A stretch of DNA of 64,000 bases, taken from assembly GCA_011391595.1 (NCBI GenBank), contig JAABQG010000008.1, positions 1 through 64,000 of the forward strand. Reading direction: 5' to 3'. Below are positions 3,762-60,656 of the stretch, piece by piece. How positions within the stretch are numbered: position 1 is the first letter of the stretch; the number at the start of each line of letters is the position of its first letter. The notes beneath the pieces were generated by a model. It did not search any database. It was not told the DNA's origin and saw nothing but the letters and a program-made list of their open reading frames with translations. The translations under genes were made by a program, and so were the position numbers. The DNA is from Hydrogenophaga sp. (lineage in GTDB: Bacteria > Pseudomonadota > Gammaproteobacteria > Burkholderiales > Burkholderiaceae_C).

Positions 3762-4952
3762 TCAGCCCATCTTGCAGCCGGCGCCGGAGTCCGACAGCGC
3801 CTTGGCGGCGATGCCGATCACCTTGTTTTCCTTGTTCTCGACCACGCGCAGGTAGATGTCCTGCACCGGGTTATGGGCCTTGCTCAGGGTCCACTTGCCG
3901 CGCGGGCTGTCGATGACAGCGCCTTCCATGGCTTTGTAGAGCGCGGGCTTGGCATTGAAATCGCCCTTGACCGCGTTGGCGCCCTGCACCAGCAGCAGGC
4001 CGGTGTCGTAGCCCTGCACGGCGTACACGTCGGGCTGGCTCTTGAATTCCTTGGCGTAGGCGAGGCGGAACTGCTTGTTGCGCGGCGTGTCCAGCGAGTC
4101 GCTGTAATGCATGGTCGTGACGATGCCTTCGGCAGCCGGGCCGGCGGCGTCGAGCACGCCTTCGGTCAGGAAGCCCGAGCCGTACAGCGGGATCTTGCCC
4201 TTCAGGCCGGCCGCCGCGTAGTCGCGGATGAACTTGGCCGCGCCACCGCCGGCGAAGAAGCAGACCACGACATCGGGCTTGAGCGCGGCGATCTCGGTCA
4301 GCAGGGCCTGGAACTCGACGTTGGGGAAGGGCAGGCCGAGTTCCTTGACGATGGTGCCGCCGGCCTTGGTATAACTCTCCTTGAAGCCTTCGAAGGCCTC
4401 GTCGCCTGCGGCGTATTTCCAGGTGATCCAGACGGCCTTCTTCAAGCCCTTGTCCATCAGCACCTTGCCGAGCGCCAGCGTGGGCTGGCTGTTGGTGAAG
4501 CTGGTGCGGAACACATTGGGCGCGCACAGGGCGCGCGTGGCGGCGTGCACGCCGGCGTTGGGAATGATGCTGAGCACGCCGGTGTCGCGCGCCACCTTGA
4601 GGATGCCCATCTGCACGCCGGAGTGCACGGTGCCGATGAGCACATCGACCTTGTCGCGCTGCACAAGCTTGGTGGCGTTCTCCACGCCTTTGGATGGGTC
4701 GGACTCGTCATCGACCTTGAACCATTCGATCTCGCGGCCGCCCAGCTTGCCGCCCTGTTCATTGATCGCCATCCGCACCCCGTTCTCGATCGCAACGCCG
4801 AGCTGGGCGAAGGTGCCAGTGTAGGGCAGCATCAGACCGACGCGCACTTTGGCGCCCTGGGCGCGCACGATCTCGGGCATGAGCAACCCGGTGGAGGCGG
4901 CGGCGATCAGGGTCGCGCTGCGGGACAGGACAAGACGGCGGGAATTCGACAT
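3762..4952 (-). CDS. Periplasmic substrate-binding protein of the liv-type ABC transporter
   Basis: 396 aa with an N-terminal export signal (MSNSRRLVLSRSATLIAAAS, likely cleaved after about residue 32 near RAQ). The mature part is a type I periplasmic binding fold of the LivK class, starting VRVGLMLPYTGTFAQLG, with the TVHSGVQMG loop and a two-lobe layout. It is first in the operon and followed closely by livH. Its sequence resembles the broad family used for amino acids and aromatic acids, so I leave the ligand open. The IclR-type regulator at the other end of the operon slightly favours an aromatic or organic acid. Confidence 0.9.
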   Translation of the reverse strand: MSNSRRLVLSRSATLIAAASTGLLMPEIVRAQGAKVRVGLMLPYTGTFAQLGVAIENGVRMAINEQGGKLGGREIEWFKVDDESDPSKGVENATKLVQRDKVDVLIGTVHSGVQMGILKVARDTGVLSIIPNAGVHAATRALCAPNVFRTSFTNSQPTLALGKVLMDKGLKKAVWITWKYAAGDEAFEGFKESYTKAGGTIVKELGLPFPNVEFQALLTEIAALKPDVVVCFFAGGGAAKFIRDYAAAGLKGKIPLYGSGFLTEGVLDAAGPAAEGIVTTMHYSDSLDTPRNKQFRLAYAKEFKSQPDVYAVQGYDTGLLLVQGANAVKGDFNAKPALYKAMEGAVIDSPRGKWTLSKAHNPVQDIYLRVVENKENKVIGIAAKALSDSGAGCKMG

Positions 4953-5036
4953 GGGGTCTCCTTTTGTTTAGGCTTAAAGTACTTTACAGGAACTCTGGGT
5001 CGCCGGGCCTAATGGCTAACCCGAACATGGCATGGC

Positions 5037-5507
5037 TCATGCGGCCAGCGCCAGCGTCAGCCAGCCGCGGCACCAGGCGGCACCATCGGCCTGCGGCACA
5101 CTGCCATCGCTGGCATCGTGGCACCAGATTTCGCCAATGCGATGGGCGCCGAGGCCCTGAAGGCGCTCATCGAACAGCTTGCCGCCGAAACAGAAGGTGG
5201 CGCCATGGCTGCCAAGGTCGCCCAGTGCGATGACGCCGTAGCGAACCGTGCCCAGATATTTGGGCACCAGGTCCAGCGAATCGAAAAGCGCGCGTGCGTT
5301 GTCGGGCACGTCGCCGGACCCATAGGTCGAGGTGCAGATCAGGAACAGGGCTTCTTCGTCGAAGACCTTGATGTCCAGCCCGTCCATGAGCTGGACCTCG
5401 ATGTCACCCACGAGGTCGGTACAGTCCATCTGAATCGCCTGGGCCACGGACTCGGCTGTGCCCGTCACGGTGCCGACCAGAATCTTGAGCTTGATGACGG
5501 GGTCCAT
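5037..5507 (-). CDS. Flavodoxin-like protein (MioC type)
   Basis: 156 aa single-domain flavodoxin. The FMN-phosphate loop GTVTGTAES is at residues 12-20 and the isoalloxazine-side loop STYGSGDVPDN at 60-70, followed by the conserved YGVIALGD strand. No FAD/NADPH reductase domain is attached, so it should act as a small cytoplasmic electron carrier, closest to MioC. The ATG at 5505-5507 is preceded by an AT-rich region with a -10-like TATACT (5546-5551, minus strand), suggesting its own promoter. The redox partner is not evident. Confidence 0.85.
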   Translation of the reverse strand: MDPVIKLKILVGTVTGTAESVAQAIQMDCTDLVGDIEVQLMDGLDIKVFDEEALFLICTSTYGSGDVPDNARALFDSLDLVPKYLGTVRYGVIALGDLGSHGATFCFGGKLFDERLQGLGAHRIGEIWCHDASDGSVPQADGAAWCRGWLTLALAA

Positions 5508-8354: not shown

Positions 8355-9614
<1,260 letters not shown>

Positions 9615-9647
9615 CGTGATCTCCTGTGGCGGATAAAAAAGTGGGGG

Positions 9648-10733
9648 TCAGGCCTTCTGGGCGAATCTCCAGGCCAGTTCGGCCATGGGGCGAGCCCCGG
9701 CGCCCGAACTGATGGCTTGCGGGCTGGAGGCCGTGCCGGCCTCCACCCGCTTGGCGATGCCTTGCAGGATGGCGGCAATGCGGAACAGGTTGTAGGCAAG
9801 GTAGAAATTCCAGTCTGCCTTCAAAGCTTCAGGCGTGATGAAGCCCGTCCGGTCGCAGTACATGCGGATGTACTCGGCTTCCGTGGGAATGCCCAGGCTG
9901 GCGACATCAAGGCCACCGATGCCGCGAAACGAGCCCGGCGGGATGTGCCAGGCCATGCAGTGGTAGCTGAAGTCGGCCAGCGGGTGGCCCAGGGTGGAGA
10001 GTTCCCAGTCGAGCACGGCAAGCACCCGCGGCTCGGTCGGGTGGAACATCAGGTTGTCGAGCCGGTAGTCGCCATGCACGATGCTGACCATGGCCTCGTC
10101 ACGAGCCTTGGCGGGTATGTGCGCCGGCAGCCACGCCATCAACTGGTCCATCTCGGGGATCGGCTGGGTGATGGATGCCACGTACTGCTTGCTCCAGCGG
10201 CCTATCTGGCGCTCGAAATAGTTGCCCGGCTTGCCATAGCCCGCAAGGCCGCGATCGGCGAACTTCACGGTGTGCAGCGCGGCGATCACACGGTTCATCT
10301 CGTTGTAGATGGCACCACGCTCGCTGTTGTCCATGCCGGGCAAGGACTGGTCCCACAGGACCCGGCCCTGCACGAATTCCATGACATAGAAGGCACGGCC
10401 AATGACAGATTCGTCTTCGCAAAGCACGTGCATTCGGGCCACGGGCACATCGGTGCCGTACAAGCCTTTCATCACGGCAAATTCGCGCTCGACGGCATGA
10501 GCGGAAGGCAGCAGCTTGGCGACAGGCCCGGGCTTGGCGCGCATCACATAGCTTTGGCCCGGCGTGACGAGCTTGTAGGTCGGGTTGGACTGCCCACCCT
10601 TGAAGATCTCCACCGTCAAGGGGCCCTGAAAGCCGGGCAGGTTTTTGTCAAGCCAGACGCTCAGCGACTCGACGTCGAAAGCGTGCGAACCGGTCACGGG
10701 ACGGGTACCGACAAAATGGGTGAAGTCGTTCAT
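9648..10733 (-). CDS. APH-fold kinase paired with the acyl-CoA dehydrogenase
   Basis: 361 aa aminoglycoside-phosphotransferase-like kinase. The ATP lobe is at about residues 40-120 (IFKGGQSNPTYKL, YVMRAKPGP). The catalytic loop is HGDYRLDN (220-227) and the metal-binding LDWE is at 241-244, so the active-site residues are present. The closest relatives by layout are the N-terminal kinase of ACAD10/11 and LvaA of levulinate catabolism, which phosphorylate the hydroxyl of 4-hydroxyacyl-CoA. It lies between a Crp-like regulator gene (33 bases upstream) and the dehydrogenase (33 bases downstream). Antibiotic resistance is unlikely in this context. Confidence 0.85.
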   Translation of the reverse strand: MNDFTHFVGTRPVTGSHAFDVESLSVWLDKNLPGFQGPLTVEIFKGGQSNPTYKLVTPGQSYVMRAKPGPVAKLLPSAHAVEREFAVMKGLYGTDVPVARMHVLCEDESVIGRAFYVMEFVQGRVLWDQSLPGMDNSERGAIYNEMNRVIAALHTVKFADRGLAGYGKPGNYFERQIGRWSKQYVASITQPIPEMDQLMAWLPAHIPAKARDEAMVSIVHGDYRLDNLMFHPTEPRVLAVLDWELSTLGHPLADFSYHCMAWHIPPGSFRGIGGLDVASLGIPTEAEYIRMYCDRTGFITPEALKADWNFYLAYNLFRIAAILQGIAKRVEAGTASSPQAISSGAGARPMAELAWRFAQKA

Positions 10734-54071: not shown

Positions 54072-55853
54072 TCAAGTCACCCTTACCTGCACCAGTTCCT
54101 CGCCTTGCGGATCGGTCACGTGTACGGCACATGCGATGCATGGATCGAAGCTGTGGACGGTGCGCAGGATCTCCAGCGGTTGCTTGGGGTCGTGCAAGAC
54201 GTGGTTGTGCTGCAATGCGGCTTCGTAAGGTCCCGGCTGACCCTTTGCATCTCTGGGTCCGGCATTCCAGGTGCTGGGAACCACGGCCTGGTAGTTGCTG
54301 ATCTTGCCTTCGTCAACCACGATCCAATGCGACAGGCCCCCACGCGGAGCTTCCATCAAGCCCACCCCCTGCATGTGGCTTGGCCAAGTCGATGGATCCC
54401 AGTACTGGTCGTTGAAAGTGCGTACATCGCCGGCCTTGATGTTGGCGATCAAGGCGTCGTACCAGCCCTGCATGGCGTCCGCAATGATTTTTGATTCGAG
54501 CCCACGCGCCGCAGTGCGCCCCAAAGTGGAAAACAGCGCGGTGACCGGGACGTCAAGGGTTTTCAGGGTGGAGTCGACCAGTTCGCGAGTCTGCTTGTGT
54601 CCGTTCGCGTACATCAGCAGGACGCGCGCCAGCGGCCCTACCTCCATCACCTTGCCCTTCCAGCGGGGCGATTTGATCCAGGAGTATTTCTGCTCAACGT
54701 CCAGGTGCTCGTACGGCGGTTTTGGGCCCGTGAAATTGAGCGCGGTCTCCCCCTTGAAGGGGTGCAGGCCCTGTGCGTCTCCGGCGCCATATCTGTACCA
54801 GGAGTGGCTGACGAATTCCTGGATCTCGTCGTCCTTGTCCAGGTCGATGGGATGAATGGTGGAAAGGTCGCCGTTGAGAATTGCGCCACGGGGAATGAGG
54901 AAGGAATCCTTCTCCCAGATGGACTTCTCTGGTAGGTCGCCGAAGGCCATGAAGTTGCCGCCGGTATTGCCGATGCTGCCCCAGTCCTTGTAAAAGGATG
55001 CAATAGCCAGCAAGTCGGGCACGTAGACCTGATCGACAAACTCCTGCATCTGTTTGATCGCGTTCTGAACGATCTGCAGGCCGACCATATTGACGGCGGT
55101 GGCCGCCTGACCGCCGCCGCCGCGCTGCGGGCCGGCACTGGTCTGCACCGAGATCGCGGAAGGTACGCCGCCGACCACGAAATTCGGATGCGGGTTCTTG
55201 CCCCCAAAGATAGTGTGCAGTTTGACCACTTCACGCTGCCAGGTGAGCGCTTCCAGGTAATGGGCCACCGCCATGAGATTGGCCTCCGGCGGCAGCTTGT
55301 AAGCCGGGTGTCCCCAGTAGGCATTGGAGAAAATACCCAGCTGCCCCTGTTCGACAAAGGTCTTGATCTTCTTCTGCACATCCGCAAAGTAGCCCGGTGA
55401 GGACTTGGAATAGCGGGAGATGCTCTGTGCCAGCGCCGACGTTGCCTTGGGGTCGGCTTTGAGTGATGAAACTACATCGACCCAGTCGAAGGCATGCAGA
55501 TGGTAGAAATGCATGACATGGTCATGCACGTACTGGGTCGCAATCATCAGGTTGCGGATCAGTTCTGCGTTGCGGGGAATCGCGTAGTTGGGGACGGCGC
55601 GATGCAGCGCATCCTCGACTGAACGCACCGAGGCGATCCCGTGAACCAGGGTGCAGACCCCGCAAATGCGCTGGGCAAAGGCCCAGGCGTCCCGTGGGTC
55701 GCGTCCGCGCAGAATGATTTCGATTCCGCGCACCATGGTCCCAGCCGAATAGGCCTGGGTGATCTTGCCGGCGGCATCGGTCTGTGCCTCGATGCGCAAA
55801 TGCCCTTCAATCCGCGTGACAGGATCAACAACGATGCGTTGTGCTGTGGTCAT
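54072..55853 (-). CDS. hynL: [NiFe]-hydrogenase large subunit, Isp type
   Basis: 593 aa. The N-terminal nickel ligands are in RICGVCTLVHG (Cys64, Cys67) and the C-terminal pair in DPCIACAVH (Cys572, Cys575), so the NiFe(CN)2CO site is complete. Fifteen residues (VTDPQGEELVQVRVT) follow His578 and should be removed by the maturation protease. It is last in the operon, 12 bases after a 148-aa gene. In Isp-type (group 1e) systems of Thiocapsa and Allochromatium the large-subunit gene is also split from the small one by isp1-isp2, which fixes the class. It oxidises or makes hydrogen at the periplasmic face. Confidence 0.96.
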   Translation of the reverse strand: MTTAQRIVVDPVTRIEGHLRIEAQTDAAGKITQAYSAGTMVRGIEIILRGRDPRDAWAFAQRICGVCTLVHGIASVRSVEDALHRAVPNYAIPRNAELIRNLMIATQYVHDHVMHFYHLHAFDWVDVVSSLKADPKATSALAQSISRYSKSSPGYFADVQKKIKTFVEQGQLGIFSNAYWGHPAYKLPPEANLMAVAHYLEALTWQREVVKLHTIFGGKNPHPNFVVGGVPSAISVQTSAGPQRGGGGQAATAVNMVGLQIVQNAIKQMQEFVDQVYVPDLLAIASFYKDWGSIGNTGGNFMAFGDLPEKSIWEKDSFLIPRGAILNGDLSTIHPIDLDKDDEIQEFVSHSWYRYGAGDAQGLHPFKGETALNFTGPKPPYEHLDVEQKYSWIKSPRWKGKVMEVGPLARVLLMYANGHKQTRELVDSTLKTLDVPVTALFSTLGRTAARGLESKIIADAMQGWYDALIANIKAGDVRTFNDQYWDPSTWPSHMQGVGLMEAPRGGLSHWIVVDEGKISNYQAVVPSTWNAGPRDAKGQPGPYEAALQHNHVLHDPKQPLEILRTVHSFDPCIACAVHVTDPQGEELVQVRVT

Positions 55854-55865
55854 GGTCTGTTTTCC

Positions 55866-56312
55866 TCAACTCTGCAGGAAGGTTTCAAGAATCCGGTATT
55901 GCTCCCGGGCTTCGGTGTTCTCGGTGCCCAGGCCTTCCGCAACCGTCTGGCAGGTCCTTGCCAGACGGGCCTGCATGGCGGCTTCCCAGGCGATGTTTTC
56001 GCCCGGAACAGCGATTCGCACGCACGCCTGCGCGGCCTTGGCCACAAAGTGACCGGCCTGCGCGGTCCAGCCGGCGTCGCTCCCGCACTGGGCATAGCTG
56101 TCCACCCGCGCGGCATGGGCCGCATGCGCAGCCATCAGCAACTCGGCTTCCGTGATGTCGGCCCGCGCGGCGGACTCCAGAGCGGTCTTGACCCGCACGT
56201 CGTGCGAAAGGTCCAGCACCCGCCGGCAGAACGCGACGGCGACCTGGCGCTGCTGCTCAATGGGCAAACCTGCCAGCGCCATCTTGAATTCCTTGTCATG
56301 GGTGATCGACAT
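55866..56312 (-). CDS. Unrecognised 148-aa protein within the hydrogenase operon
   Basis: 148 aa, mostly alpha-helical by composition (Ala, Glu, Arg-rich helices such as QQRQVAVAFCRRVLDLSH and ARADITEAELLMAAHAAHAARVD). It is soluble, without signal peptide or membrane segment, and has three Cys (in VAFCRRVL, YAQCGSDAG and QACVRIAV) that do not form a known Fe-S motif, plus a fourth in TCQTVAEG. It lies five bases after isp2 and 12 before the large-subunit gene, so it is firmly in the operon. The published order hynS-isp1-isp2-hynL lacks such a gene. A chaperone or assembly factor for the large subunit is a guess. Confidence 0.8.
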   Translation of the reverse strand: MSITHDKEFKMALAGLPIEQQRQVAVAFCRRVLDLSHDVRVKTALESAARADITEAELLMAAHAAHAARVDSYAQCGSDAGWTAQAGHFVAKAAQACVRIAVPGENIAWEAAMQARLARTCQTVAEGLGTENTEAREQYRILETFLQS

Positions 56313-56317
56313 GGCAG

Positions 56318-57583
56318 CTAGGCTCCTTTTTCAACAAGGTGGTCAGCGACCATCTCGGTCAGGCCGACCACGGGCAGATCCATCTGGTAATGTTCCAGAC
56401 CCTCCTCAAGAACGATGCGGCAATTGGCGCAGGCGGTGACCACCCGGTCCGGCTTGACCGTTTCGAACTGGGATTTCTTGACCTTGAACGCCTCCAGACG
56501 CAGTTCTTCGCCTTCCTCGATCGCCGAAGCGCCGCCACCACCCCCGCAGCACCAGTTCATGTAGCCAGCGTCCGGCATCTCGACGAAGTTCTTTGCCACC
56601 ATGTTCATCAGATTGCGCTGCGGCTGAATGACGCCGCCACGTCGCGCCAGCTGGCAGGGGTCGTGGAAGGTCAGGCGGTCTTTCTCGAAGCCTTCCGTCT
56701 TGAGCAGCCCGAGTTCCTGAAACTCGCCCAGCACTTCGACGATGTGCTGGACCTTGAAGGTGAACGGTCGGCCCATCAGGTTGGCACCTTCCCAGCGCAG
56801 GGCGGTGTAGGCGTGTCCACACTCCGGGCTGATGACCGTTTTGACCTTGAGTTTCTCCGCGCCTTCGACGATGCGCGAAACGATCACCCGCGCCAAGTCC
56901 GAGTTGCCGATCTGCATGCCGGCGTTGGTCGCCTCGAAGGCGGTCGAACACAGCGTCCAGGTCTTGCCGACATGCTGCATGATCTTGGCGATGGCCCCGA
57001 GGTACTCGGGAAAGTTCATGATCTCCATCGACGACAGCATCACCAGGTACTCGGCGCCTTCCACGTCCATCGGGATCGGGATGCCGAAGTCTTTCTCCAC
57101 ATGCTTCATCTGCGCCTTGACGGCGGGCAGCTTTACGCCCATCGGACTGCCGATCGTGATCGTGCGGTTGGCCGCGCCCTTGATGCCTTCGGGCGCGTTA
57201 CCAGAGGCGGACATGCCCTCCCGGAACTTGCGCACCATGTAAACGATGTCGTTGCCGACCGGGCACACGGCCGAGCAGCGACCGCACAGGGTGCAGGAGT
57301 TGTAGACCAGCTCCTGCCATTCGCCGAGTTCGGCGTCGGTGACTGGTCTGGACAGCCCGAACGCTTTCTTCATCCGACCCAGCAGCGTGTATTCCTGCTC
57401 GTAGACGCGCCGCATGGGTTCCAGCTTGTGAATCGGCGTGTACTTGGGATTGCCGGTCTCGGTGTAGAACAGGCAGGCTTCAGCGCAAAGGCCACAGTGC
57501 ACGCAACTGTTGAAGTAGCTGGCGATGGGTGCATCGATGACTTCCTTCAGGACGCGCACGCCCTTTTCAAGTGAGGCGCTCAT
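56318..57583 (-). CDS. isp2: Isp2: HdrD/DsrK-like iron-sulfur protein of the hydrogenase
   Basis: 421 aa from the ATG at 57581-57583, overlapping the isp1 stop (ATGA). Two [4Fe-4S] sites: CVHCGLCAEAC (Cys27, 30, 33, 37) and CTLCGRCSAVC (Cys97, 100, 103, 107). The C-terminal half carries the CCG-type site (Cys310, Cys345-Cys346 in NWCCGGGG, and CANC at 385-388), plus Cys255 of an earlier partial motif. This is the heterodisulfide-reductase subunit D / DsrK plan. It is cytoplasmic and should take electrons from Isp1 towards a disulfide or sulfur-linked acceptor, or feed the quinone pool. Confidence 0.94.
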   Translation of the reverse strand: MSASLEKGVRVLKEVIDAPIASYFNSCVHCGLCAEACLFYTETGNPKYTPIHKLEPMRRVYEQEYTLLGRMKKAFGLSRPVTDAELGEWQELVYNSCTLCGRCSAVCPVGNDIVYMVRKFREGMSASGNAPEGIKGAANRTITIGSPMGVKLPAVKAQMKHVEKDFGIPIPMDVEGAEYLVMLSSMEIMNFPEYLGAIAKIMQHVGKTWTLCSTAFEATNAGMQIGNSDLARVIVSRIVEGAEKLKVKTVISPECGHAYTALRWEGANLMGRPFTFKVQHIVEVLGEFQELGLLKTEGFEKDRLTFHDPCQLARRGGVIQPQRNLMNMVAKNFVEMPDAGYMNWCCGGGGGASAIEEGEELRLEAFKVKKSQFETVKPDRVVTACANCRIVLEEGLEHYQMDLPVVGLTEMVADHLVEKGA

Positions 57584-58245
57584 ACGGCAACTCCTTTGTG
57601 ACCGTTGACGGTGCCATTGAACCAGCGTGATCCGAACACCGTGAAGGCGTGGAACAACTTGGTAAACGGCAGAAAAATCAGCAGCAACTCCACGCAAAGG
57701 ATGTGCAAGGCCAACATGGTGGTGTACGGCAGCAGAAGATGCCGCACGGCCAGCCAGCCGGTCAGCAGTGGCAGGAAAGTCAGCGTCCAGGTGAACCAGT
57801 CTTCAAAGGTGGAGAGAAAGCGCTTCACCGGATTCATGATGCGATCTGCCAGCAGCACCAGCATGGCGACGATGGTCACGATGGTGATGAGATCGATGAA
57901 TTGCGAGGGCAGGGCCGGCCAGGACACGCCGATCAGGCTCTGGATCAGTTTGATATGCGGTGCAAACAGCAACACGACGATGGCCAGTCCGATATGAAAA
58001 ACGCCACCCGCAATGTAGGTGACAGGTGCCTTCTTCAGCATGCCCTCGGCGGGCAGGGTGCGCCGGAAAATCGTCCGCCATCCGGATGCGCCTGACGCCG
58101 CGCGCGGGGCCGAGAGGTCCTTCTTGCGTCCGAGGCTGTAGATCTCGAACAAACGCCACAACACGCCGAGTACAAATATTCCCACGGCAAGGTTGAGACC
58201 CGGTCCCCGGACCCAGGTCAGCAGTTGCATCTCATTCATGATCAT
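57580..58245 (-). CDS. isp1: Isp1: NarI-like membrane cytochrome b of the hydrogenase
   Basis: 221 aa with five hydrophobic helices (starting GLNLAVGIFVLGVLW). His84, His97, His181 and His199 lie in or near helices and are the likely haem b ligands, as in NarI/DsrM. It anchors the small subunit electrically to the membrane and passes electrons inward. Start MIMNEM at 58245 overlaps the small-subunit stop (ATGA); the ATG at 58239 is an alternative. Order small subunit-isp1-isp2 is that of the Isp-type hydrogenases. Confidence 0.93.
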   Translation of the reverse strand: MIMNEMQLLTWVRGPGLNLAVGIFVLGVLWRLFEIYSLGRKKDLSAPRAASGASGWRTIFRRTLPAEGMLKKAPVTYIAGGVFHIGLAIVVLLFAPHIKLIQSLIGVSWPALPSQFIDLITIVTIVAMLVLLADRIMNPVKRFLSTFEDWFTWTLTFLPLLTGWLAVRHLLLPYTTMLALHILCVELLLIFLPFTKLFHAFTVFGSRWFNGTVNGHKGVAV

Positions 58246-59333
58246 TTCTCCAGATCGGCCAGTGTGGTCGTCTCGTGCCCCGCCTTGGCGGCGCTCTTTT
58301 TGGACCGGTTCAGGAAGCTCACGACAGCGCCTGTTGCCACGCCAGCGGCCGTCGCGGCGCCCACCATTTGCATGGGACCCGCAGGCATTGAAAGCGCCCG
58401 GTAGAAGCCGCCCGCATCCCAGAAATCAGGTTCCGAGCAGCCCAGGCAACCATGCCCGGACTCTACTGGCCACGACGTGCCTGCGTTCCACTTGGTTGTG
58501 GCACAGGAGTTGTATGTCACCGGCCCCTTGCAGCCGAGTTCGAACAGGCACCAGCCATTGCGTGCGCCTTCGTCATCGAAGGTTTTTGCAAACTTGCCCT
58601 GATCGTAGAACGGGCGACGGTAGCAGCGGTCGTGGATGGTTTCGCCATAGAAGGCCTTGGGCCGTCCCTTGTCATCGAGTTCGGGCAGACTGCCAAAAGT
58701 GATGAAATGGGCCAGCACACCGGTCATGACCACCGGGATGGGCGGGCAGCCGGGAACATTGACGATGGGCCTGTCCTTGATGATGTCTGAAACGGACACC
58801 GCGCCAGTGGGATTCGGATTGGCATTCGGAAGACCCCCAAACGCGGCGCAGGAACCCATGGCAACGATCGCCGCGGCGCCCCTGGAGGCTTCCTTGAGCA
58901 GTTCCAGGTTAGTCCTGCCGGCGATGCAGGAATAGGCACCATCCAGCCCCAATGGGATGGAGCCATCAACGATCAGCAGGTACTTGCCGTGGTTCTCTTT
59001 CATCGCCGCGTGCAGGGCTCCCTCGGCCTGGAATCCCGCAGCGGCCATCAGCGTCTCCTGATAGTCCAGCGAAACCATGTCGAAAATCATCCCTTCGATG
59101 GTGGGCGAGTGCGATCGCGTGATCGACTCGGTGCAGCCGGTGCATTCCTGGAACGGCAGCCAGATGACTGAGGGGCGCCTGGTGGCGGCCTGTGCAGCGG
59201 CAAGTGCCGAGGCCATGGCGCGTCCGGCAACGGGCGGAAGCGCCATCATGGACGCCAGGGTGGCACAGTACTTCGAAAATGTGCGACGACTCACGCCGTG
59301 CCGTGCGAGTGTTTCGATCAATGGACCTTGCAT
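58242..59333 (-). CDS. hynS: [NiFe]-hydrogenase small subunit, Tat-exported
   Basis: 363 aa. Twin-Arg signal SRRTFSK (Arg16-Arg17) with hydrophobic run to about residue 45. Proximal [4Fe-4S]: Cys64 and Cys67 (CTGCTES), Cys162 (MGSCAAFGG), Cys196 (VPGCPP). Distal: His234, Cys237, Cys262, Cys268. Medial [3Fe-4S]: Cys277, Cys296, Cys299. The two extra Cys of oxygen-tolerant enzymes are Gly here (positions 66 and 167). A C-terminal membrane anchor (VGAATAAGVATGAVVSFL) follows. It carries electrons from the active site to Isp1, located in the periplasm. Confidence 0.96.
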   Translation of the reverse strand: MQGPLIETLARHGVSRRTFSKYCATLASMMALPPVAGRAMASALAAAQAATRRPSVIWLPFQECTGCTESITRSHSPTIEGMIFDMVSLDYQETLMAAAGFQAEGALHAAMKENHGKYLLIVDGSIPLGLDGAYSCIAGRTNLELLKEASRGAAAIVAMGSCAAFGGLPNANPNPTGAVSVSDIIKDRPIVNVPGCPPIPVVMTGVLAHFITFGSLPELDDKGRPKAFYGETIHDRCYRRPFYDQGKFAKTFDDEGARNGWCLFELGCKGPVTYNSCATTKWNAGTSWPVESGHGCLGCSEPDFWDAGGFYRALSMPAGPMQMVGAATAAGVATGAVVSFLNRSKKSAAKAGHETTTLADLEK

Positions 59334-59379: not shown

Positions 59380-59799
59380 TCAACTCAAATCTGAAATCAG
59401 CAGATTAAGCCGATCCAGACCGGCTGCAACGTCGTCGATCGGCGCCTTCACCAGTTCAGGCACCACGGCGACTTCGATGAACGCGGACGCCACCCCGCCT
59501 TGTCCGTTGTGGTGCGTGACCCACCAGACACCCGGGCAACTGGTTTCATCCAGCCTGGATTCGCCGCCCGCGTTCAGACTGATGTGGGTTTCGCCGTTTC
59601 CCAGAGATTCGCGCAGCCAGTCCAGGTCGGCCGCGGTCAGCGGCATCGCCAGCAAATCAATGGTGGACGCCTCGCCGGCGTCAACCAGCATGCGCACTTT
59701 TTCCGCAATTTCCCTCAACACGACACCGGCATTGCCGGTCAGCGCCGCATGGGGACCAGGGGCAGAAACAGCGACAACGGGAATGGCGTCAAGCTTCAT
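59380..59799 (-). CDS. HupH/HyaF C-terminal-domain protein
   Basis: 139 aa from the ATG at 59797-59799, which overlaps the protease gene by 11 bases; a TTG at 59823 would add eight residues. The body matches the HupH_C domain: LLAMPLTAADLDWLRESLGNGETHISL, SCPGVWWVTHHNGQGGVASAFIEVAVVPELV. HupH/HyaF proteins are usually about 280 aa with two such halves and help assemble the small subunit or its proximal cluster; here only one half is present. It lies between the protease and the small subunit genes, consistent with assembly. Confidence 0.82.
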   Translation of the reverse strand: MKLDAIPVVAVSAPGPHAALTGNAGVVLREIAEKVRMLVDAGEASTIDLLAMPLTAADLDWLRESLGNGETHISLNAGGESRLDETSCPGVWWVTHHNGQGGVASAFIEVAVVPELVKAPIDDVAAGLDRLNLLISDLS

Positions 59800-60262
59800 G
59801 CTGCCAGGCGCCCACAAGATCAAAAATCGCAGCGGTAACCGCAGGGATGGCCGCCGCTACGACAGGCGTTGGCAATTCGCCCCAGTCCATGACTTGTGGC
59901 TGAATGGCCACCATCGCGCGCTTGCTGGGCCAATGACCTGCCAACATGGCAATGGCGCGCAGGTCGGTCAGTCCGACCTCATGTACCGTGGACTTGCGAT
60001 TTCCCAGCAGGAAGGTATCCACCGCCTCGCCCTCGATCAGGCGCCACGTGCCCGCTGGCGAACTGATGTTGGCGGCGTCGACAACAACAAGGGCGTCGGC
60101 ATCCTGAATGGGGCCGGCCAAGGTAAATGACAAGGTGCCGCCATCCAGGAGTTCCACTCCTTCCGGTAGCGCGGGGCCCGCACGGAGTGCCTCAAGTACA
60201 TGAATGCCCACACCTTCGTCCGTCAGGAGTGTGTTTCCAATGCCGAGCACCAGGATTTTCAT
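59789..60262 (-). CDS. hupD: Hydrogenase maturation protease (HupD/HybD family)
   Basis: 157 aa, the usual size. Nickel-sensing residues match HybD: Glu16 (LLTDEGVG), Asp62 (VVVDAANI) and His94 (TVHEVGLTDL). It cleaves the large-subunit C-terminal peptide after nickel insertion. It is the first gene of the operon. The ATG at 60260-60262 follows the intergenic region with the FNR-type site. Confidence 0.94.
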   Translation of the reverse strand: MKILVLGIGNTLLTDEGVGIHVLEALRAGPALPEGVELLDGGTLSFTLAGPIQDADALVVVDAANISSPAGTWRLIEGEAVDTFLLGNRKSTVHEVGLTDLRAIAMLAGHWPSKRAMVAIQPQVMDWGELPTPVVAAAIPAVTAAIFDLVGAWQHEA

Positions 60263-60407: not shown

Positions 60408-60656
60408 ATGTGCCTCGCGATACCCATGCAAATCACCGCGATCGACGGACTCTCCGCCCGTTGCGAGGCGCGCGGAGTCTGCCGTGACATATCGGTATTC
60501 ATGATCCGGGACGAGATCCCGAAGGTGGGTGACCATGTCATGGTCAGTGCCGGGCAGGCTGTCCGAAAGGTCAGCGAGGAGGATGCGCGACTTTCGTGGG
60601 AACTCTACGATCAGATCCTGGCGGAAATGCCGGAGCCGTCGCTTCATCGTCGCTAG
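60408..60656 (+). CDS. hypC: Hydrogenase assembly chaperone HypC
   Basis: 82 aa with the invariant start MCLAIPMQI (Cys2), followed by GVCRDISVFMIRDEIPKVGDHVMVSAGQAVRKVSEEDA. HypC carries the Fe(CN)2CO unit from HypD to the large-subunit precursor. It is divergent from the operon across the FNR-type site. No hypA, B, D, E or F is in the window, so these must be elsewhere. Confidence 0.94.
   Translation: MCLAIPMQITAIDGLSARCEARGVCRDISVFMIRDEIPKVGDHVMVSAGQAVRKVSEEDARLSWELYDQILAEMPEPSLHRR

Follow-up and report, generated by a model that had tools for sequence, protein, structure and literature searches.

orfX, a conserved and optional gene between isp2 and hynL in operons of Isp-type [NiFe]-hydrogenases

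The orfX gene and its operon

The window, i.e. the whole 64,000-nucleotide stretch of Hydrogenophaga sp. DNA that was analysed, carries on its minus strand a hydrogenase operon with the gene order hynD-hupH-hynS-isp1-isp2-orfX-hynL. The hynD gene (59789..60262) encodes a HycI-type hydrogenase maturation protease and is followed by a gene for a hupH-like expression protein (59380..59823, HupH_C match). Next come hynS (58242..59333), which encodes the hydrogenase small subunit with a twin-arginine-like SRRTFSK motif (recognised by eye), isp1 (57580..58245), which encodes a membrane cytochrome-type subunit similar to TmcC/HmcE, and isp2 (56318..57583; start placed by alignment with relatives, the listed open frame extending to 57697), the product of which is an Fe-S protein consisting of two Fer4 motifs and a C-terminal CCG (HdrD/DsrK-like) domain. 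The product of hynL (54072..55853) is the [NiFe]-hydrogenase large subunit (NiFeSe_Hases) with a DPCxxC motif and a C-terminal extension. A hypC-like chaperone gene (60408..60656) lies on the plus strand, divergent from the operon. The best NCBIfam scores of Isp1 and Isp2 (56318-58245) are to the sulfate-respiration modules TmcC/HmcE and DsrK/TmcB/HmcF, all below cut-off.

The orfX gene (55866..56312, minus strand; ATG at 56312, stop ending at 55866) encodes a predicted all-helical protein of 148 residues. It is separated from isp2 by five bases (56313-56317) and from hynL, on the 54 kb side, by 12 bases (55854-55865). AGGAG is found 10 bases upstream of its ATG, and GAGGA nine bases upstream of the ATG of hynL. 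The gene and both gaps had been described in a sequence-only reading of the window, which did not name the strand, and are confirmed here. The same applies to its statements that OrfX has no export signal (none is visible by eye in the N-terminus, MSITHDKEFK), no Fe-S motif (the four cysteines, at positions 29, 76, 97 and 121, form no CxxC) and no recognised family, as no Pfam, NCBIfam, PHROG or PDB sequence match stands above noise. With the window protein, Pfam gave nothing at E ≤ 1, NCBIfam a single match and PHROG two, all at noise level (E 0.49, 0.07 and 0.65), and the PDB sequences just two designed proteins (E ≥ 0.5). A search of Pfam with 22 aligned family members at E ≤ 1 lists 19 families, with DUF416 and Imm5_like not among them; a match to Apc13p (E 0.0008, one of the 22 rows) and other low single-row matches were taken as noise. 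No DNA-binding or ligand-binding family is matched above noise, and no relatives were found in the plasmids and phages searched. Pfam and NCBIfam contain no profile of a Hyp, Hup, Hya, Hyb or Hox accessory family that matches OrfX, so the match to a known hydrogenase factor, which the earlier reading had named as evidence against it, did not occur at the level of sequence.

The OrfX family

Searches by tblastn, pattern and profile found 28 distinct members of the OrfX family (three duplicate loci, L090, L098 and L099, were dropped). Since the relatives are 34-63% identical and dN/dS is 0.07-0.29 in 23 pairs of close relatives, which indicates purifying selection, orfX is more than a chance open frame: it is a real, conserved and selected gene of the isp operon. 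Residues R22, R116, A118, Q138 and Y139 (window protein numbering) are kept in all rows of a 22-row alignment, two rows of which are without the N-terminus, and those kept in at least 90% of these rows include D6, L16, R40, C76, W82, Q85, F89 and E134.

The order isp2-orfX-hynL is found in 24 of the 28 members, and orfX lies directly behind isp2 in 26. Thirteen members, from the named collection, belong to metagenome-assembled genomes of Nitrosomonadales, Rhodocyclaceae/Rhodocyclales, Burkholderiales, Gallionellaceae, Sideroxyarcus, Thiotrichales/Thiotrichaceae and unplaced Gammaproteobacteria or Proteobacteria; all 13 loci were found via orfX alone, and in all of them it is located directly behind isp2. 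In L052 (the same locus as L098) there is no hynL behind orfX, and the sequence of L113 ends about 90 bases behind it. The order is rearranged in L054 (genome G317, 8940-10044), where orfX comes after hynL, with a permease-like gene between the two (its DsbD_2 match is weak and below cut-off). A solo orfX lies outside any hydrogenase locus in L115, from genome G917, in which HynL was not found and the best Isp2-like match has 31% identity. The gene upstream of this solo orfX (L115:715-1980) starts with MINIDNDTEFNAYI, echoing the start of orfX, as if the 5' end of orfX had been duplicated onto another gene.

Distribution among isp loci

Clear orfX carriers number at least seven among 399 genomes of the order, a lower bound because the profile search scored no more than nine candidates per genome, and all seven have isp1. 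The latter is present in 47 of the 399 genomes (E ≤ 0.001), and orfX was not found in 40 of these. The co-occurrence of the two genes is significant by genome (Fisher p 2e-7) and by genus (p 0.004); two further genomes of the order, without isp1, gave partial orfX matches (E 3e-4 and 4e-4) inside long frames. In the phylum sample there are three carriers among 398 genomes, G917 being one of them. Within a single genus (code g396), orfX is present in G513, G553, G624 and G743 and absent from G714.

In the class sample, 53 isp1 places were taken (all at E < 1e-30, the window's own excepted; nine weak places were left out), 40 of which have hynS or hynL. Ten of these 40 hydrogenase-linked loci have orfX and 30 do not, or 27 of 37 when only judged loci are counted, since the contig ends at isp2 in L036, L039 and L046. 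At the 13 isp1-isp2 loci without hynS or hynL, orfX was not found (0/13 versus 10/40; Fisher p 0.10), which is what a hydrogenase-specific role would predict. Neighbours were scanned at two of the 13 (L078:4902-11585 and L086:744-7352), and in both isp1-isp2 stands behind genes for a molybdopterin oxidoreductase, a 4Fe-4S protein and a cytochrome b561, an arrangement that makes Isp1-Isp2 look like a wiring module of general use.

Thus, of the earlier description of the gene as locked into the hydrogenase operon, membership in the operon holds, and the survey of other isp1-isp2 loci that it had proposed finds orfX co-occurring with isp genes, but "locked" does not hold, given the 40 of 47 isp1 genomes and 27 of 37 judged loci without orfX. 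The gene is an optional part of Isp hydrogenase operons.

Its presence or absence is clean in 60 complete loci (22 with and 38 without orfX, a set enriched for carriers by the way it was found). In orfX-plus loci, 450-612 bases lie between the isp2 stop and the HynL match (-11 in L054); in the 38 orfX-minus loci this distance is at most 37 bases in 29, 68-183 in seven, and 363 and 916 in two. Five of the complete orfX-minus loci have gaps of more than 150 bases. Those of L147 and L033 contain no orfX-like frame, that of L043 contains an unrelated gene for a protein of 250 residues (4441-5193) with weak Pfam matches only, and those of L040 and L152 contain no orfX by profile search, the sole coverage of these two.

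Predicted fold of OrfX

Structure prediction, which the sequence-only reading had also proposed, gave a seven-helix model with a small set of strong matches. The AlphaFold2 model of the window OrfX has a mean pLDDT of 92.8 and a pTM of 0.88, and that of a second, 37% identical member a pLDDT of 87.6 and a pTM of 0.86, the two being built from the same 14 sequences in different order and hence not independent. The only solved structures matched above Z 8 by both models are 3f7c and 2q9r (DUF416/YjaG) and chain B of 7jtu, with Z scores of 11.9, 11.4 and 11.6, respectively, for the window model and 12.2, 10.9 and 11.6 for the second. These matches cover 138-144 residues (rmsd 2.9-3.2 to 3f7c and 2q9r), and the next-best rows have Z scores of 5.8 and 6.2. 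Z scores of up to 13 can arise between helical models through common arrangement; despite this, the drop to the next row, the extent covered and the repeat with the second member speak for a real likeness, with OrfX sharing the fold of DUF416/YjaG and 7jtu chain B. TorD/NarJ-like folds are absent from the structure-comparison rows listed for either model.

Foldseek found no match at E ≤ 0.001 in PDB (first model only) or in BFVD (both models). A viral Imm5-like model in BFVD (A0A6J5RNF9) was matched by the two OrfX models with a probability of 1.00, TM of 0.70 and 0.66 and E of 0.02 and 0.19. Alignment of the OrfX and DUF416 profiles with hhalign gave a probability of 1.7% (P 0.03), compared to 0.2% (P 0.35) for the control against Isp1.

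Which subunit orfX follows

On trees of the 60 complete loci, the orfX label (present or absent) needs six changes for the Isp2 C-terminal domain (Isp2 C), seven each for whole isp2 and isp1, eight for the N-terminal part of Isp2 (Isp2 N), nine for hynL and 11 for hynS, with a mean of 18 for each tree when the labels are shuffled; the counts for Isp2 C, isp2 and isp1 are just one apart. Clade tests, made with 24 of the 60 loci and on clades named after the trees had been seen, bear on two rearrangements that share one reference group, and a third brings the number of events to only three. In the first event, HynL unites the orfX-plus window, L110, L112 and L114 with the orfX-minus L148/L149 (98/98), a clade rejected by Isp2 C (dlnL 207, AU p 4e-7) and not rejected by HynS, Isp1 or Isp2 N (p 0.08, 0.24 and 0.14). 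In the second, Isp2 C unites the window, L110, L112 and L114 with the orfX-plus L089/L091 (100/99); Isp2 N agrees (92/97), Isp1 does not reject this clade (p 0.40), and HynS and HynL do (p 3e-5 and 6e-4). The orfX tree sides with Isp2, placing L089/L091 beside the window (90/81, within a 98/98 clade). At the level of gene phylogeny, these two main rearrangements show the presence of orfX to follow the C-terminal domain of Isp2 and not HynL or HynS.

The third event concerns G131, a fragmented assembly, in which hynS-isp1-isp2-orfX is intact (L098:514-3970) and an Isp-type hynL, 73% identical, is found on a separate contig of 6 kb (L168:1501-3240), with no isp genes or orfX beside it. A second large subunit, 52% identical, is also present. 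If the assembly is right, G131 has a split Isp-type hydrogenase operon.

Several observations stand against a strict partnership of OrfX with Isp2. In L111, Isp2 parts from its relatives and orfX does not, L049 gained orfX, or its kin lost it, without replacement of Isp2, and in L054 orfX lies behind hynL and the permease-like gene. Over 22 loci the distance correlation of OrfX is lower with Isp2 C (r 0.63) than with the others (0.77-0.79), so a coevolution of OrfX with Isp2 C in particular is not borne out. The lack of orfX at the 13 isp1-isp2 loci where hynS and hynL are missing and its occurrence in G917 also weigh against the Isp2 reading.

A sharp recombination point within isp2 (near residue 122) was considered and is not claimed: as the relatives compared have kept the Fer4 part, and the tree of this part has poor resolution, replacement of the whole isp2 fits equally well. 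Associations of single Isp2 positions with orfX carry no correction for relatedness and were set aside.

Proposed role of OrfX

The reading ranked most likely, though put forward tentatively, is that OrfX is a cytoplasmic protein-binding accessory of Isp2: a subunit, a gate or an assembly chaperone. With no export signal to be seen, any lasting partner of OrfX would be expected in the cytoplasm. From the fold and the genomic association we infer that OrfX would serve some Isp-type (group 1e) [NiFe]-hydrogenases as a cytoplasmic accessory and that its scaffold would hold the cytoplasmic subunit Isp2, most likely at the C-terminal CCG domain of the latter. OrfX could then be either a permanent subunit that shapes or gates the electron exit or a chaperone that maintains Isp2 in a competent state before it docks on Isp1; in lineages without orfX, Isp2 would not need it. 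A more specific version, which we regard as improbable, is that an immunity-like scaffold was recruited to respiration, where OrfX would bind on top of the CCG cluster domain of Isp2, gating whether electrons from H2 take the cytoplasmic exit or pass to quinone alone. If so, orfX-plus and orfX-minus hydrogenases would differ in electron routing.

The next most likely candidate, although on balance an unlikely one, is a dedicated cytoplasmic chaperone of the hydrogenase core, which would stay bound to pre-HynL (or to the HynSL pre-complex) until insertion of the Ni-Fe site, removal of the tail by HynD and export by the Tat system. Such a role would suit a small, helical protein without an export signal, whose gene immediately precedes hynL in 24 of the 28 members and, in the class sample, was found at 10 of 37 judged hydrogenase-linked isp loci and at none of the 13 without hydrogenase genes. 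It fits poorly with G131, where orfX stays with isp2 and hynL is elsewhere, with the history shared by orfX and Isp2 of L089/L091 and rejected by HynL and HynS, and with the occurrence of close HynL homologues (80-84%) without orfX.

Among the roles guessed at in the sequence-only reading, a link to Isp2 is thus the one favoured by the label counts, the clade tests and G131, and nothing was found for a regulator. A regulatory or sensory protein, or an anti-factor, tuning hydrogenase expression or activity could well be optional, small and soluble and have a fold known from a protein-binding immunity protein, but orfX lies midway in a structural operon and follows the isp2 type, and its product resembles no DNA- or ligand-binding family, making this improbable. 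A genuine immunity protein or antitoxin (DUF416/SsdAI/Imm5-like) that resides in the operon but protects against a toxin instead of serving the hydrogenase is very improbable. The fold matches and the solo member in L115 would agree with it; 26 of the 28 members lie directly behind isp2, orfX co-occurs with isp1, the scanned neighbours in the window are hydrogenase genes with no toxin family among them, and neither the Imm5_like nor the DUF416 profile matches OrfX. The preferred reading remains that of an Isp2 accessory.

Comparison with known systems

The window has the same four genes in the same order as the Isp-type group 1e operon hynS-isp1-isp2-hynL (PMC2621215, PMC7735108, PMC10892978), with one further gene between isp2 and hynL. 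As the earlier reading had said, orfX is absent from the described order: the available parts of these papers and of PMC3102683 put isp1 and isp2 between the genes of the two subunits and mention no other gene at that position. The titles and abstract starts listed in literature searches, few subscription papers among them, contain no description of a gene between isp2 and hynL, which does not prove its absence. A model of archaeal Isp hydrogenases has both the large and the small subunit on the outside, Isp1 embedded in the membrane and Isp2 on the cytoplasmic side, and proposes that electrons may exit to quinone as well as to a low-potential acceptor in the cytoplasm (PMC11018855). A fifth protein of the operon, with a presence that tracks the type of Isp2, bears on what Isp2 does in the cytoplasm, and relatives with and without orfX within genus code g396 provide matched pairs for testing Isp2 function. 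Hydrogenase-specific chaperones of the HyaE/HybE, HupG-K and HoxO/Q types are, like orfX, small accessory genes in hydrogenase operons, but OrfX has no profile match to any hydrogenase factor.

The predicted fold of OrfX is like that of DUF416/YjaG (PF04222; 3f7c and 2q9r, both labelled as of unknown function) nearly end to end in two family members (Z 10.9-12.2, 139-144 residues). Unlike these proteins, OrfX is about 50 residues shorter, is only 8-15% identical to them and has no Pfam match; the DUF416 profile is absent from 60 relatives and present in one of 185 class genomes. 7JTU is a complex of the deaminase toxin SsdA with its immunity protein SsdAI; the latter is described as exclusively α-helical, and the interface it forms with the toxin, its single partner, as large (PMC7901873). 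Judging from its helical fold, chain B would be SsdAI, which both OrfX models match at Z 11.6, but OrfX is found among hydrogenase genes and no toxin family lies beside orfX in the window. Likeness to Imm5-like proteins (PF21805) is limited to a fold match to the one viral model so named, with no profile match of OrfX. Taken with the place of orfX in the operon, the models suggest that a DUF416/SsdAI-like fold is used outside toxin immunity.
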